From contig VGSG01000042.1 of NCBI GenBank assembly GCA_016875095.1, forward strand, positions 1 through 36,055: DNA of 36,055 bases, given 5' to 3'. Position numbers and translations under genes: made by a program. The stretch is from Deltaproteobacteria bacterium (GTDB taxonomy: Bacteria > Desulfobacterota > Desulfomonilia > Desulfomonilales > Desulfomonilaceae). This document shows, in pieces, positions 29,424 to 36,055 of the stretch. The notes under the pieces are model-generated. The model made no database searches, was not told where the DNA came from, and saw only the letters and a list, made by a program, of their open reading frames with translations. The stretch's first letter is position 1, and every line of letters starts with the position of its first letter.

Positions 29424-30773
29424 ATGACGAAACCCTTTCTGAAAGTTCATCCTCCGGAAAGCGCCCGGGAGAGGCTCAAGCGTTTCTCTCGGCTCGCCAC
29501 TGAAGAAGTCTTTCTGGACGACGCGCTCTTTCGAGTCCTCAGCGAACCCGTCGCGGCCGAGGATGATATGCCGGGCTTTGATCGCTCCACCATGGACGGA
29601 TTCGCCGTTCGGTCCGCGGACACCTTTGGCGCGACTGAATCCGCGCCGGCCCTGTTACAGGTGATCGGCGAGGTCTCAATGGGCCAAGTGAGCGGGACGG
29701 CGCTGGCCAAAGGCGCAACCATGAAGATCTGGACCGGCGGCGCGCTCCCTCCCAACGCGGACGCGGTGGTCCAGGTGGAACACACCCAGGAACTCGACGC
29801 CAATACCGTGGAAATACTGAAGGCCGCAGCGCCGTACGAGCACGTGGTCCGAAAGGGTGAGGATTACCACAGGGATGAGCTCCTCATGGATGCGGGGCAT
29901 AGGTTGCGGCCGCAGGACCTGGGCTTACTCGCGGCCATGGGACGATCGAGGGTGACGGTCTACCGGAAACCGGCCGTGGGGATCATGAGTTCCGGCGACG
30001 AGATCGTGCCCATCGAGCAGGAGCCGCCCCCCGGTTGCGTCAGGGATGTGAACAGGCATGCGCTCACCGCGTTGGTTCGGCAGGCGTACGCTGTTCCGCA
30101 GTGGATCGGCATAGCTCCTGACGAGCTGGAACAGCTCTCGGCCATGCTGGCGAGCGCGCTGGAAGCGTGCGACGTGGTCATAGTCTCCGGCGGCAGCTCC
30201 ATGGGGATCCGAGACCTGGTTATTACAGCCATCGAGCAAAGCACAGACTCAGAAATCCTGCTGCACGGCGTATCCATATCCCCCGGGAAGCCGCTGATCC
30301 TCGCGCGGGTGGGCCCCAAGCCGGTATTTGGTTTGCCCGGTCACCCGATTTCCGCAATGGTCTGTTTCGAGCAATTCGTCGTTCCAAGTCTTCGCAGGCT
30401 TGAGGGGGAGGATTCCGTAGAACCGTACCTGGGCGTCACAGCGCTCGCGTTTCTGAGCCGCAACGTGGCTTCCAAGGAAGGTCGGACGGATTTCGTCCGG
30501 GTCAGGCTCGAGGAGAGGGACGGTCGTCTCATTGCCCTTCCCATTCTCGGCAAATCCGGGATGACTTCCGCCATGGTTCGAGCCCACGGCCGCATCACTG
30601 TCGCGCAGGACTGTGAAGGCCTGTACAAGGGCGATTTGGTGGAGGTGCAACTTTCTGCCAACTGGATCGAGGCGCGTCTTGAGAAGAAACATTTATTTGG
30701 ACATGAAGCCGCCCGCAGAAGCTCTGGAGATCTTCTTGAAGCGGCTCAACAGGAGTTACTTTCCGGGGTCTGA
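29424..30773 (+). CDS. moeA: Molybdopterin molybdotransferase MoeA
   Basis: A 449-aa MoeA, which uses adenylyl-molybdopterin to insert Mo (or W) into the pterin cofactor. Signatures: STMDGFAVRSADT at 55-67 (substrate loop), KIWTGGALPPNADAVVQVEHT, GIMSSGDEIVP, VSGGSSMGIRD, and SPGKPLILARVGPKPVFGLPGHPISAMVCFEQFV. The usual family end (LVEVQL) comes at about residue 410; 39 further residues follow, read out of frame through the first 95 nt of the next gene, so this tail is probably a stop-loss extension. It is the first gene behind a strong promoter. The neighbouring second MoeA fusion suggests division of work between two metals or two cofactor forms. Confidence 0.92.
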   Translation: MTKPFLKVHPPESARERLKRFSRLATEEVFLDDALFRVLSEPVAAEDDMPGFDRSTMDGFAVRSADTFGATESAPALLQVIGEVSMGQVSGTALAKGATMKIWTGGALPPNADAVVQVEHTQELDANTVEILKAAAPYEHVVRKGEDYHRDELLMDAGHRLRPQDLGLLAAMGRSRVTVYRKPAVGIMSSGDEIVPIEQEPPPGCVRDVNRHALTALVRQAYAVPQWIGIAPDELEQLSAMLASALEACDVVIVSGGSSMGIRDLVITAIEQSTDSEILLHGVSISPGKPLILARVGPKPVFGLPGHPISAMVCFEQFVVPSLRRLEGEDSVEPYLGVTALAFLSRNVASKEGRTDFVRVRLEERDGRLIALPILGKSGMTSAMVRAHGRITVAQDCEGLYKGDLVEVQLSANWIEARLEKKHLFGHEAARRSSGDLLEAAQQELLSGV

Positions 30774-32613
30774 GCGCGTTCCGGTCATCCGGGCCCTGGA
30801 CCGGGTGACAGCGGCGCCGGTGTACGCGGCGATTTCTTCGCCCCATTTCCATGCGGCCGCCATGGACGGATTCGCGGTCAAAGCTCTTGACACCTTCGGC
30901 GCAGGGCCGGATCGGCCCATCCGGTTTCAGGTCGGCGCGAACGCGTGGCCGGTGAATACCGGTCGCCTTGTGCCGGAAGCAGCCAACGCAGTGATCATGA
31001 TCGAAGACGTCCACTTCATCTCGGAGGAGATCTTCGAGGTGGAGCGGGCTGTCGTCCCCTGGCAGCACGTGCGAAGAGTCGGAGAAGATTTTGTGGCGTC
31101 AGAGATGATCCTCCCCGCGCATCGCCGCATCACCGCCTACGATCAGGGAGCGCTTCTTGCAGGAGGCATCTCGGCTGTGGAAGTGGTGGAACAGCCTTCC
31201 GTGACGCTGATCCCCACCGGAACCGAACTCGTGCCTGTGGAGAGCCTCGGACGACGGGCCCCGGCGCCGGGTGAAACAATCGAATTCAACACGGTGATGC
31301 TGGCAAGTCTTGTTGAGCGCGTCGGCGGACGGGCAATCCGGACGGAGATCGTGGAGGACACTTTCGACTCCATTCGGGCTGCCATCAAAGAAGCGGCGCA
31401 GTCCGACGCTCACCTGGTGGTGGTGAACGCGGGATCATCCGCGGGGAGTGAAGACTACGCAGCCGCGGCCATACGGGATCTGGGTGAAGTGCTGGTTCAC
31501 GGCGTGGCCATGATGCCGGGCAAACCGACCATTCTGGGCATCGTGGATGAGAAGCCGGTGATCGGCAATCCGGGCTACCCGGTTTCCGCTGTGCTCTCTT
31601 TTGAGCTGTTCGGCTTGCCGACGCTTGAGCTTATGCTGGGGCTCCCGCATCGATCGCGGCCCACCATTCCGGTTCGGTCAGCGCGAAAAATCCCTTCCAA
31701 ACTGGGCCGGGAGGAGTTCTTCCGAGTAAAACTCGGTAGAGTGGGTGACCGCGTGGTTGCCGCGCCCCTTCCCCGGGGCGCGGGTTCGATCACCACCCTG
31801 ACCAAGGCGGATGGAATCATCAGAATCGGGCCGCTCGTGGAAGGGGTCGATATGGGCGCGGAAGTCAACGTGGAATTGCTCCGTGACCCTTTGGATATCG
31901 AACGAACCGTGGTGATCATCGGCAGCCACGACCTGACCTTGGACGTGCTTGCGGATGAATTGGGTTCCCGCGGCCTGTTTCTGTCTTCCAGCCATGTTGG
32001 CAGCTTGGGCGGACTGCTCGCTCTCAAGAACCGCACTTCGCACCTCGCCACGTCCCATCTGCTCGACGTTGAGACCGGCGAGTACAACTGGTCATACATA
32101 CGCCGATACATCCCGGAAATTCCCGTGAAGGTCATTCGGTGCGTGAGCCGCGAACAAGGCTTCATCGTTCCCAAAGGCAATCCCAAGGGGATCAAAGGCT
32201 TTGAAGACCTCATCAGGGATGATGTGACCTTCATTAATCGTCAATCAGGCGCGGGCACGAGAGTTCTGCTTGATTATCACCTGGACCGTTTGGGGATCGA
32301 TAGAAGCCGGATCAAAGGGTACGAACTGGAGGAATATACCCATACCGCGGTGGCGGCCGGCGTGCTCAGTGGAGTCGCAGACGTGGGTATGGGAGTTCTT
32401 GCCGCGGCCAAAGCCTTGGATCTGGACTTTGCGCCTGTGGCCACGGAAGAGTATGAGCTGGTGATCCCTGAGGAGTTCTTCGCAGACGAGAAGATCCAAG
32501 CGCTCCTGGAGGTGCTCAGGAGTGACCGATTCAAGCGGCGGGTCGCCGAGCTGGGCGGTTACGGAGTGGAGAACACCGGCATGGAAGTGACTCCAAGGCC
32601 CATGAGCCGATAG
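30679..32613 (+). CDS. MoeA fused to periplasmic-binding-like (molybdate/tungstate?) domain
   Basis: A 644-aa two-domain protein. Residues 1-410 are MoeA: AAMDGFAVKALDTFG, NAVIMIEDVHF, TLIPTGTELVPVE, VVNAGSSAGSEDY and MMPGKPTILGIVDEKPVIGNPGYPVSAVL. Residues about 425-630 are a PBP-like domain (PF12727 type): TVVIIGSHDLTLDVLADEL, LFLSSSHVGSLGGLLALKN, FIVPKGNPKGIKGFEDL, TFINRQSGAGTRVLLDYHLDRLGI and TAVAAGVLSGVADVGMGVLAAAKAL. The fusion is common in anaerobes; the C-terminal part probably senses or presents the oxyanion. I chose the TTG at 30679 (RRNIYLDMKPPAEALEIF) because GAGG lies 6 nt upstream and this N-terminus matches the family; an ATG at 30703 is the alternative. Either way it overlaps the upstream gene. 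Confidence 0.9.
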   Translation: MRRNIYLDMKPPAEALEIFLKRLNRSYFPGSERVPVIRALDRVTAAPVYAAISSPHFHAAAMDGFAVKALDTFGAGPDRPIRFQVGANAWPVNTGRLVPEAANAVIMIEDVHFISEEIFEVERAVVPWQHVRRVGEDFVASEMILPAHRRITAYDQGALLAGGISAVEVVEQPSVTLIPTGTELVPVESLGRRAPAPGETIEFNTVMLASLVERVGGRAIRTEIVEDTFDSIRAAIKEAAQSDAHLVVVNAGSSAGSEDYAAAAIRDLGEVLVHGVAMMPGKPTILGIVDEKPVIGNPGYPVSAVLSFELFGLPTLELMLGLPHRSRPTIPVRSARKIPSKLGREEFFRVKLGRVGDRVVAAPLPRGAGSITTLTKADGIIRIGPLVEGVDMGAEVNVELLRDPLDIERTVVIIGSHDLTLDVLADELGSRGLFLSSSHVGSLGGLLALKNRTSHLATSHLLDVETGEYNWSYIRRYIPEIPVKVIRCVSREQGFIVPKGNPKGIKGFEDLIRDDVTFINRQSGAGTRVLLDYHLDRLGIDRSRIKGYELEEYTHTAVAAGVLSGVADVGMGVLAAAKALDLDFAPVATEEYELVIPEEFFADEKIQALLEVLRSDRFKRRVAELGGYGVENTGMEVTPRPMSR

Positions 32614-32944: not shown

Positions 32945-33298
32945 GGGCATAGGCGTTAAAATAGGATTGGCCTCTGGCGCTGCACATTCCCCCCTCACCC
33001 TGCCCTCTCCCGCCAGGGGAGAGGGTTTCCGGAACCCCCTCCCTCGATGGGAGGGGGAAGGGGGCATAGGCGTTGAAATAAGGCTAGCCTCTAGTGCCGG
33101 GGTATTCCCCCTCACCCTGCCCTCTCCCGCCAGGGGAGAGGGTTTCCGGAACCCCCTCCCTCGATGGGAGGGGGAAGGGGGCATAGGCGTTAAAATAAGG
33201 CTAGCCTCTAGTGCCGGGGTATTCTCCCTCGCCCTACCCTCTCCCGCCAGGGGAGAGGGTTTCCGGAACCCCCTCCCTCGATGGGAGGGGGAAGGGGG
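32945..33298. repeat. Three tandem 117-bp repeats with palindromic G/C stems
   Basis: Units start at 32945, 33062 and 33179 (GGGCATAGGCGTT). Units 2 and 3 differ at about four positions; unit 1 is more diverged in its first 50 nt. Each unit carries two stems: CCCTCTCCC with GGGAGAGGG, and CCCCCTCCC with GGGAGGGGG. This kind of sequence is a dispersed intergenic repeat in many proteobacteria; here it is tandemly amplified. Confidence 0.85.
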
Positions 33299-33343
33299 AG
33301 GGTGATAAGGCATTGTTAACACAGCGGCCTATTCCTTAATTTG

Positions 33344-33414
33344 AACGCCTATACCCATCGAGGGAGGGGTCATAAAACCCTCTCCCCTGGTGGGAGAGGA
33401 AAGGGAGAGGGGGA
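33344..33414. repeat. Inverted, partial fourth copy of the 117-bp unit
   Basis: AACGCCTATACCCATCGAGG and then AACCCTCTCCCCTGGTGGGAGAGG read as the reverse complement of the tandem unit, with a gap in the middle. Together with the direct copies it could form a long hairpin, and the arrangement looks like past insertion and rearrangement. Confidence 0.7.
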
Positions 33415-33498: not shown

Positions 33499-36055
33499 AT
33501 GTACGAAATCTGGCATGCGGACCTGAAGAAGGCTGTGGCTGAGGGGGAAGCTCTCTTCATCGTGGGAACGGGCGTTTCCATCGCGGCCACGAACGGAGCG
33601 GAATGCGCATCCTGGACGGGGCTCCTGAAGCATGGAGCTCACCGCTGTGTCGATGTGGCTGTGCCCAAGCTTCGAGGGGACTGGGAGGTGGACGTTTGCA
33701 AGGAAATCGATTCCGAGGACCTCGACGATCTCTTGTCTGCCGCGGAAAAAGTCTCTCGCAAATTGCGCGCGCCTGACGGTGGTGAGTGGTCCCGCTGGCT
33801 GAGGGAATCCGTCGGCGAGCTGAAGATCCATGACCGACAGGTTCTGGAGGCACTGCGCGACCTCAACCTTCCTCTGGCCACAACCAACTATGACCATCTC
33901 CTTGCGACTGTCACGGGGCGAGAGGTGGTACCGTGGACTGAGAAGCGCAAGATTGAACAAGTTATTCGGCGCGAGCGTCAGGGAATCGTGCATCTCCACG
34001 GCCATTGGGATGATCCCAAATCGGTGGTTCTGGGCATAAGGTCTTACGAAAAGGTTCTGGGGGATGAGCACGCGCAGGCGACTCTCCGAGCGCTTGCTTT
34101 CATGAAGACGCTCGTCTTCGTAGGCTTTGACGCAGGATTGAATGACCCGAATTTTGGCGCTTTGCTGAAATGGACCGAGCAAGTTTTCGTTCAATCCGAG
34201 TATCGACGTTTTCGCTTGGTCCGAGAGAGTAAAGTCGAGCAGGTAAGAGCCCAGCACCCGATAGAACAGCGGCTCTTTGTGCTGTCGTACGGCCCGGATT
34301 ATTCGGACCTTGCCCCGTTTCTGCGCTCGTTGGGCAGTTTCCAGCCTGCACACGCGCCCGGGCCTTCCGCCTCTCCCAGCGCACGCGCGATCATTCCCGC
34401 TGCGCCCCGCATTTTCGGCCGCGAGGATAAGGTTCAAGAGCTTATCGCGGCGATCCTGGCTGATAAGCCCGATCCGATACCGGCGCTGGGCGGTCCGGGG
34501 ATCGGAAAGACCGCGGTGACGCTCGTGGCCTTGAATGACAACGCGGTGATCGCTCGGTTTGGAGACAGGCGCTATTTTGTGCGGTGCGACGCTGCCAAAT
34601 CCCGCCGGGAACTGGCCTCAACGATTGCGAAGAACATGGGCTTGTCGGCCCCGTCGGACCCTGAACAGGCCATACAAGCTTTTCTGGAGCGTGAACCCGC
34701 GCTGCTCGTTCTCGACAATGCGGAAACACCCTGGGAAAACGACCTGTTGCCTGTTGAAGAGCTGCTCGGGATTCTCGGTCGGTGTTGTTGCGGGGCGATG
34801 GTGGTGTCTATGCGGGGGCACGAACGGCCTCAGGAAGTCTCGTGGCGGCAGCCCATAGAACTGACCCGCCTCGATGACGATTCCGCGCGTGAAGCATTCT
34901 TGGAAATTGCGGGAAAGGAATTCGCGGACGACCCGCGCGTACGCGACCTGTGTAAGGAGCTGGAAGGCGTGCCCTTGGCCATTACCCTCATGGCCCTTGC
35001 CGCGCAAGGTGAGAGTGACCTGGAGGGAATCTGGTCACGCTGGCAGAGCGAGCGCACCGCTATGCTCAAACGGGATAAGGGAGATCACCCACTGACCAGC
35101 CTCGATCTCTCGTATCAGATCTCCATCCACGGCGATCGCATGAATCCCGAGGCTCGGGAGCTGCTATCAGTTCTCTCGTTGCTCCCCGACGGGCTTGCGC
35201 ATCAGGATCTACCGGAAATCCACCCACATGGGCATCGTGCCGCATCCACGCTTCGCAAAGTTGGCCTGGCATTTGACGAAGCCGGTCGCCTACGCGTGCT
35301 CGCCCCGCTTCGCGAGCACGTGACCAAGAAATATCCCCCGGAGAAGGACGCGCTGGATCCGGTGGTGTCCCATTTCGTCGAACTGGCGCTGGAGCATGGT
35401 GACACGGTGGGCCGCGAGGGGGGCGCTGAAGCGGTCCAACGACTCTCACAGGAAGTCGGGAACGTGGAAGCGATGCTGATCAGGGCTTTGACGAGGGAAG
35501 CGAGCGAAGAGACAATTCAAGCTAGCGTGGACTGGGGTGAATTCGTCCGCTTCACCGGTCTCGGGTCCATACGGCCTCTTGCAGCCGCCCTCGCCGCGGC
35601 TGAAGCCCTTGGCCTGGTACAAGACCAGGCAAACTGCATCAAGCGCCTCGGAGACATCGCCCTTCGGCGCTCCGATCACGACTTGGCCCGGGCCCAGTAC
35701 GAAAAGGCGATCCCTCTTTACCAAAAGGTCGGCTCCATACTCGGAGAGGCAAACTGCATCCAGAGCCTCGGACACATCGCCCTTCGGCGCTCCGATTACG
35801 ACTTGGCCCGGGCCCAGTACGAAAAGGCCCTTACACTTTTTCAAAAGGTCGGCGACATACTCGGAGAGGCAAACTGCATCCGGAGCCTCGGAGACATCGC
35901 TCTTCGGCGCTCCGATCACGACTTGGCCCGGGCCCAGTACGAAAAGGCGATCCCTCTTTACCAAAAGGTCGGCTCCATAGTCGGAGAGGCAAACTGCATC
36001 AAGAGCCTCGGAGACATCGCCCTGGAGCGCTCCGATCACGACTTGGCCCGGGCCC
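33499..36055 (+). CDS. SIR2 - NB-ARC - TPR (NLR-like) protein, 3' end outside window
   Basis: 852 residues are visible and the frame is open to the edge. N-terminal SIR2-like NADase domain (about 1-260): GTGVS at 23-27, TTNYD at 128-132 with Asn130, HLHGH at 165-169 with probable catalytic His167, and FVGFDAGLNDPNF at 207-219. Next an NB-ARC/STAND ATPase: FGRED near 308, Walker A GGPGIGKT at 331-338 (Lys337), Walker B LLVLDN at 402-407, VVSMRG sensor, GVPLA at 490-494, then a winged-helix part ending near LAPLREHVTKKYPP. From about 700 come TPR repeats of exactly 40 residues. This is the layout of bacterial NLR-like anti-phage proteins: the TPRs sense, the ATPase oligomerises, and SIR2 depletes NAD to stop phage growth. 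ATG at 33499 with only a weak ribosome site; no partner gene is visible. Confidence 0.85.
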   Translation, partial: MYEIWHADLKKAVAEGEALFIVGTGVSIAATNGAECASWTGLLKHGAHRCVDVAVPKLRGDWEVDVCKEIDSEDLDDLLSAAEKVSRKLRAPDGGEWSRWLRESVGELKIHDRQVLEALRDLNLPLATTNYDHLLATVTGREVVPWTEKRKIEQVIRRERQGIVHLHGHWDDPKSVVLGIRSYEKVLGDEHAQATLRALAFMKTLVFVGFDAGLNDPNFGALLKWTEQVFVQSEYRRFRLVRESKVEQVRAQHPIEQRLFVLSYGPDYSDLAPFLRSLGSFQPAHAPGPSASPSARAIIPAAPRIFGREDKVQELIAAILADKPDPIPALGGPGIGKTAVTLVALNDNAVIARFGDRRYFVRCDAAKSRRELASTIAKNMGLSAPSDPEQAIQAFLEREPALLVLDNAETPWENDLLPVEELLGILGRCCCGAMVVSMRGHERPQEVSWRQPIELTRLDDDSAREAFLEIAGKEFADDPRVRDLCKELEGVPLAITLMALAAQGESDLEGIWSRWQSERTAMLKRDKGDHPLTSLDLSYQISIHGDRMNPEARELLSVLSLLPDGLAHQDLPEIHPHGHRAASTLRKVGLAFDEAGRLRVLAPLREHVTKKYPPEKDALDPVVSHFVELALEHGDTVGREGGAEAVQRLSQEVGNVEAMLIRALTREASEETIQASVDWGEFVRFTGLGSIRPLAAALAAAEALGLVQDQANCIKRLGDIALRRSDHDLARAQYEKAIPLYQKVGSILGEANCIQSLGHIALRRSDYDLARAQYEKALTLFQKVGDILGEANCIRSLGDIALRRSDHDLARAQYEKAIPLYQKVGSIVGEANCIKSLGDIALERSDHDLARA
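35641..36055 (+). repeat. Exact-period 120-bp coding repeats (TPR units)
   Basis: Three full units (35641, 35761, 35881) and the start of a fourth (36001), each 120 bp, in frame, coding for LGDIALRRSDHDLARAQYEK and the following helix. Units 1 and 3 differ at only about 5 of 120 positions, and synonymous sites are conserved too, pointing to recent duplication or gene conversion. Confidence 0.9.

Follow-up and report, generated by a model that had tools for sequence, protein, structure and literature searches.

A head joined to a nucleotide-binding switch and a repeat array is the layout of the NLR receptors, and the question raised by the present locus is whether a bacterial gene of this layout is a complete immune sensor and, if so, how it would act. 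The window, a stretch of 36,055 nucleotides, is the whole of contig C42 from a 4.7-Mb genome assembled in 202 contigs. An earlier note, made from the letters of the DNA, had proposed that the gene at its right-hand end is a single-gene, NLR-like antiphage system. We reexamined that gene, its relatives, and its surroundings.

Gene and domain architecture

The gene starts at ATG 33499 and its frame (33499 to 36054) continues without a stop for 852 codons to the contig edge. Pfam places in that frame a SIR2 domain, then NB-ARC, which a winged-helix region follows, and then TPR repeats, the order that the earlier note had given. Its positions for Asn130 (in TTNYD), His167 (in HLHGH), Lys337 (in GGPGIGKT), and the GVPLA motif were likewise correct (Table 1). 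Because the window is an entire contig, the gene is truncated by the assembly, and the edge falls within a TPR array of 120-bp repeats. The rest of the gene was recovered only by proxy: full-length relatives show the missing part, but the 3' remainder was not found in the organism's own assembly, where a DNA search with the repeat detected no second contig bearing TPR repeat DNA and the profile search for the C-terminal cap matched nothing beyond the repeats of this contig and unrelated proteins with TPRs. The uninterrupted relatives, of 1,085 and 1,093 amino acids, indicate that the complete gene encodes one protein with about 8 to 9 TPRs and a conserved C-terminal cap.

Table 1. Features of the truncated gene in the window
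Feature	Coordinates	Strand	Basis
SIR2-NB-ARC-TPR gene	33499..36055	+	852 codons, then contig end
SIR2_2 (FAM118-like) predicted NADase head, residues 1-281	33499..34341	+	Pfam; profile match to FAM118B
Asn130 codon	33886..33888	+	Aligns with catalytic N163 of FAM118B
His167 codon	33997..33999	+	Aligns with catalytic H206 of FAM118B
Asp216 codon	34144..34146	+	Aligns with D255 of FAM118B; invariant in nine relatives
Pro/Ala/Ser-rich linker, SIR2 to ATPase	34342..34395	+	Sequence; poorly conserved in alignment
NB-ARC (AP-ATPase), residues 309-515	34423..35043	+	Pfam, motifs, profile, fold
Walker A (GGPGIGKT, residues 331-338, Lys337)	34489-34512	+	Sequence
Walker-B-like LLVLDN (residues 402-407)	34702-34719	+	Sequence
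GVPLA (residues 490-494)	34966-34980	+	Sequence
Winged-helix/ARC region and conserved helical linker to repeats	35044..35613	+	Alignments, AlphaFold model
Tandem TPR array, 120-bp (40-aa) unit, 3.6 copies, 89% matches	35627..36055	+	Repeat analysis, Pfam

The SIR2 head resembles human FAM118B

Pfam identifies SIR2_2 at residues 127 to 245 (E = 1e-15). A profile of nine SIR2 domains matched human FAM118B over the full SIR2 domain (E = 5e-40, 141 bits), whereas ThsA, KomC, and DSR2 were matched over half the domain with E values of about 1e-12 to 1e-11. With the window protein alone as the query, FAM118B was again first (E = 1e-16). The comparison with DSR and ThsA drawn in the earlier note is a loose one, the head being much closer to FAM118B. 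Residues W39, N130, H167, and D216 align with W65, N163, H206, and D255 of FAM118B and are invariant in all nine bacterial heads; Asn130 and His167 are the TTN(Y/F)D asparagine and the HG histidine of SIR2_2/SIRim NADases. FAM118B and the nine bacterial heads all have HxHG, and a loop in them exceeds that of ThsA, KomC, and DSR2 by two residues. No CxxC pair of the zinc module of deacetylating sirtuins occurs in residues 1 to 281. In a tree of the SIR2 core, FAM118B and the nine bacterial domains split from ThsA, KomC, and DSR2 with 96% ultrafast bootstrap; the tree covers about 125 core residues from few sequences, and placement within the FAM118B-containing group lacks resolution. Judged by profile, the head is closer to human FAM118B than to any bacterial defense enzyme of solved structure found here.

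Mutation of N163 or H206 in FAM118B (N163A, H206A), or of the equivalent residues in FAM118A, abolishes NAD processing, and NAD processing by FAM118B with FAM118A requires oligomerization (PMC12700824). The head of the window gene is predicted to be an enzyme that probably destroys NAD. It is homologous to the FAM118 proteins and lies outside their clade: the vertebrate FAM118 clade (SIRal) has a reported identity to the human FAM118s of at least 41% (PMC12700824), and the identity to FAM118B in the SIR2 core alignment is about 27%. The aspartate at D255 was considered as a FAM118-specific mark and dropped once sequence alignment had placed an Asp of ThsA, KomC, and DSR2 at this point as well, where their loop is shorter by two residues. 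A structural check of the SIR2 part yielded an AlphaFold model too poor for use (pLDDT 44.5, from a shallow alignment), which was left out of the fold searches, so NAD binding is argued from sequence.

The central domain is a STAND NTPase of the NB-ARC type

By motifs, Pfam, profile, and fold, the central domain is a STAND NTPase of the NB-ARC (AP-ATPase) clade. The Pfam score for NB-ARC is 24.1 bits against a cutoff of 23.5, which makes that call real but marginal. A profile of four sequences covering the NB-ARC, winged helix, and linker, here termed the chassis, had the plant NLR ZAR1 as its best match (E = 1.9e-9), with NRC1 and other plant NLRs matched more weakly. The AlphaFold model of residues 290 to 852 reached a pLDDT of 82, and its top Foldseek match, along its length, was the Pyrococcus (archaeal) STAND-TPR protein 6mfv; Apaf-1 and ZAR1 were further fold matches. 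These profile and fold results support the NB-ARC assignment of the earlier note, in the sense of the plant/Apaf type. Its description of the NB-ARC as complete fits the nucleotide-binding motifs, which are present, but not the position of the plant MHD motif, which reads LAP; in a comparison by eye, no MHD is apparent in the region RLRVLAPLREHV. A second look with VIA-align was filled by TPR proteins (residues 325 to 563), so it says little about the NB-ARC.

Relatives and exchange of the effector head

The same three-domain order was found in several genomes. Dechloromonas sp. CZR5 (L014) has a full-length relative of 1,085 amino acids, with 50% identity over residues 8 to 697. A second, of 1,093 amino acids with about 8 TPRs and the cap, comes from a genome (L026) that we take to be a member of the Azospirillales from its order relationship to Skermanella. 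The cap is conserved among the relatives. The architecture recurs in Aerophototrophica (L013) and genome G789 (L027), where contigs stop within the array or shortly ahead of it and truncate the genes. In genome G793 (L028), the domain order is the same and an insertion sequence at L028:1369-2163 interrupts the TPR part; array and cap appear to resume past it.

The chassis also occurs with another effector. In Skermanella, a chassis 43% identical to that of the window protein, and including the winged-helix/ARC and linker region listed in Table 1, has no SIR2 domain; a TIR-domain gene lies upstream and overlaps the chassis start, ending twelve bases into the NB-ARC-TPR frame as counted from its likely start. 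Two NAD-cleaving folds, SIR2 and TIR, here serve the same switch. The window-type SIR2 domain, in turn, heads other proteins. Plasmids of Azotobacter and Agrobacterium encode one with NACHT-HEAT and one with NACHT, respectively, the latter next to mcrC, and Rhodococcus and genome G261 have STAND-like examples.

The relatives L026 and L027, from two related genomes, differ in the SIR2 core. Upstream of the two genes, 1.9 kb of flanking DNA aligns at 88%. Between the genes (L026:3123-6404 and L027:3881-5944), third-position identity is 0.93 for residues 1 to 40 and 0.94 for the chassis, against 0.62 for the SIR2 region as a whole; from residue 41 to about 320 it is mostly 0.47 to 0.57, with one 40-codon block at 0.75. 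The simplest reading of this mosaic is that recombination has replaced the SIR2 core while the rest of the locus stayed conserved, although it may instead stem from chimeric assembly of the short L027 contig. A wider and distinctly tentative reading, which we hold to be doubtful, is that these proteins are a family of bacterial NLRs with a conserved NB-ARC switch, in which heads are swapped by recombination (one SIR2 allele for another, and SIR2 for TIR) and the TPRs are rewritten by tandem duplication and homogenization, and that the human immune protein FAM118B (SIRal) comes from such a head that lost its switch.

The TPR array

Pfam identifies TPR_12 at residues 752 to 823 (E = 3e-17), which confirms the TPR repeats of the sensor array proposed earlier; only about 3.6 of them lie inside the window, and the C-terminal cap is not included. 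The identity of repeats at shared four-fold sites is 0.86 in the window gene and 0.89 in L026, against 0.28 in Dechloromonas and 0.23 in G793. These silent-site values indicate that the arrays have been recently expanded or homogenized in some members and are old in others. Fungal NLR sensors that evolve fast show such homogenization of repeats (PMC4986451). Assemblies are broken by near-identical TPR repeats, and because contigs stop inside the array or directly ahead of it for the window gene and for at least two relatives (L013 and L027), receptors of this kind are probably under-annotated.

Near-identical repeats were also seen in proteins with other sensors. In the SIR2-STAND protein of G261 (L016:3872-7030), the C terminus has tandem repeats that are almost identical (SSAWANSLDKVGSFLDVAKQHGRD...), along with a stretch that is masked or gapped; this is a further homogenized sensor array, of a repeat type other than TPR. 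The SIR2-NACHT protein of the Azotobacter plasmid (L035:3977-7162) has C-terminal near-identical repeats that are HEAT by Pfam.

Distribution and gene neighborhood

Occurrence of the chassis is sporadic. Searches of 41 further genomes of the organism's own class, of 394 others sampled from its phylum, and of 397 others sampled from the phylum of Dechloromonas did not find it; it was present in 5 of 82 genomes of the Skermanella order. Searches of viral contigs with the protein and the profiles, and of phage records with the Dechloromonas protein, gave no relative, and plasmids gave SIR2-only or partial NB-ARC matches.

The window gene adjoins moeA genes, the Dechloromonas copy sits among metabolic genes outside any defense island, and the L026 copy lies upstream of genes reading as ssb and uvrA. 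No defense-island neighbors were found in the window or at the Dechloromonas locus. The earlier proposal of a single-gene system is upheld by the two uninterrupted relatives and by the lack of a conserved partner gene in the neighborhoods inspected, the latter being consistent with a one-gene system that has moved horizontally.

Several other features of the region were recorded. At positions 29424 to 32613 of the window are two tandem, overlapping MoeA-type genes, the second fused to a periplasmic-binding-protein-like domain. Just upstream of the SIR2 gene, positions 32945 to 33413 hold 3.5 copies of a 117-bp GC-rich palindromic repeat; with 55 matches across the organism's own genome, it is a genome-wide intergenic family (MITE/REP-like) outside the system. 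No Rfam families or tRNA genes were found in the window. The host is a relative of Desulfomonile: a small contig in another genome of the host family and the plasmid of Desulfomonile tiedjei DSM 6799 are identical across the 20 kb that were compared. That 27-kb plasmid (NC_018026.1, L022) carries BREX-type ATP-binding and AbiEii-type annotations and is a defense-loaded plasmid in the host family.

Comparison with known defense systems

SIR2-STAND sensors are already known in the form of Avs5 (AVAST type 5), which is, by analogy of layout, the best functional analog of the window protein. Both are single proteins with an N-terminal SIR2 NADase (predicted here), a STAND ATPase, and a C-terminal sensor; the window protein differs in that its ATPase is of the NB-ARC/AP-ATPase type and its sensor consists of near-identical TPRs. 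Avs5 is activated by phage proteins, for example JADA of jumbo phages. Identity with Avs5 was rejected, as no curated AVAST model in PADLOC matched the window protein. No chain named Avs5 was among the PDB matches of the SIR2 profile. The PADLOC matches were LmuA, ThsA, Dsr1 (to the SIR2 part only), and one TPR model, and no system model covered the whole protein.

ThsA, DSR1/DSR2, KomC, and SIR2-APAZ share with the window protein a SIR2_2 NADase effector, predicted in its case, but use other activation modules (SLOG, large helical sensors, or partner proteins). Two of these were considered as identities and rejected: Thoeris ThsA, which has SLOG after SIR2 and ThsB as partner, because Pfam finds no SLOG domain and NB-ARC and TPR follow the SIR2, and DSR1/DSR2, which join SIR2 to a large helical sensor and have no NB-ARC, because the Dsr1 model covers residues 108 to 210 only and NB-ARC and TPR are present. 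The likeness to FAM118B/FAM118A (SIRal) comprises similarity over the full length of SIR2_2, the W/N/H/D active site, HxHG, and the longer loop. The FAM118s, however, are stand-alone domains in head-to-tail filaments, whereas the window SIR2 is fused to an ATPase of an oligomerizing type. ZAR1, Apaf-1, and 6mfv share the NB-ARC switch and C-terminal repeats; plant NLRs combine CC, TIR, or RPW8 heads with LRR repeats and Apaf-1 combines CARD with WD40, where the window protein has SIR2 and TPR. The bacterial TIR/NB-ARC-TPR pair of Skermanella has the same chassis and differs in its separately encoded TIR effector. NB-ARC-TPR effectors have been described computationally (PMC7159879, PMC8195603). 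In the literature searched, which covered few subscription journals, no tested SIR2-NB-ARC-TPR protein is described. What is new is the FAM118-like head, the swapping of heads while the chassis stays fixed, and the TIR-linked counterpart.

Proposed function and alternatives

We assign a probability of roughly 0.68 to the reading that the window gene encodes a single-gene, NLR-like STAND immune sensor that hydrolyzes NAD and acts by abortive infection against phage. That the protein works as an oligomerization-gated NADase we consider quite likely, and that its main role is phage defense, likely. The gated activity is modeled on the characterized relatives Apaf-1, ZAR1, Avs5, ThsA, and FAM118A/B; domain order, catalytic and nucleotide-binding residues, effector exchange, repeat homogenization, and sporadic occurrence are read from the DNA itself. 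At rest, an ADP-bound NB-ARC/winged-helix switch and the TPR superhelix would keep the protein inactive. A trigger, which we infer to be most likely a protein produced in the course of phage infection, would bind the TPR superhelix and lead to nucleotide exchange in the NB-ARC and oligomerization. The clustered SIR2 heads would then switch on NAD hydrolysis, and the loss of NAD would starve or kill the infected cell before the phage matures.

The alternative that survives best, although we think it unlikely, is the same NLR-like death switch triggered by plasmids, by contact with kin or non-self, or by internal damage instead of phage. The Dechloromonas locus outside defense islands would suit it, as would fungal NLRs with homogenized TPR or WD repeats, which function in allorecognition (PMC4986451), and NB-ARC-TPR proteins reported in nonphage settings such as peptide-processing conflict systems (PMC7159879). 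Against this, phage proteins are the trigger sensed by the characterized SIR2-STAND proteins of bacteria (Avs5; PMC12931631), and the rapid exchange of sensor and effector is in keeping with an arms race against a mobile parasite.

We regard as improbable a regulatory STAND protein, AfsR- or MalT-like, whose SIR2 domain modifies proteins by deacylation or ADP-ribosylation or makes a signal, with no NAD depletion. Some sirtuins do modify proteins, and the NB-ARC-TPR half matches regulators such as AfsR, weakly and in the repeats. However, no DNA-binding domain was detected in the window protein, its head belongs to the SIR2_2 subfamily without a zinc module and has no CxxC, the relatives of solved structure that lie nearest to it (FAM118, ThsA, DSR2, and KomC) process NAD, and TIR replaces SIR2 in Skermanella. 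A decaying or misassembled gene with no present function, to which the contig end inside repeats and the insertion sequence in the G793 array might point, is very improbable: 852 codons run without a stop, no catalytic or nucleotide-binding residue has been lost, and two other lineages have uninterrupted relatives of full length.

The exchange of effector and sensor around one switch offers a natural series for chimera experiments. FAM118A and FAM118B are weakly active alone. As to how this SIR2 subfamily was originally activated, a FAM118-type head on an oligomerizing NB-ARC suggests forced clustering, which can be tested, and it may also point to where the subfamily came from; a FAM118-like head on a bacterial NLR-type protein would be a concrete link from bacterial to human immunity.
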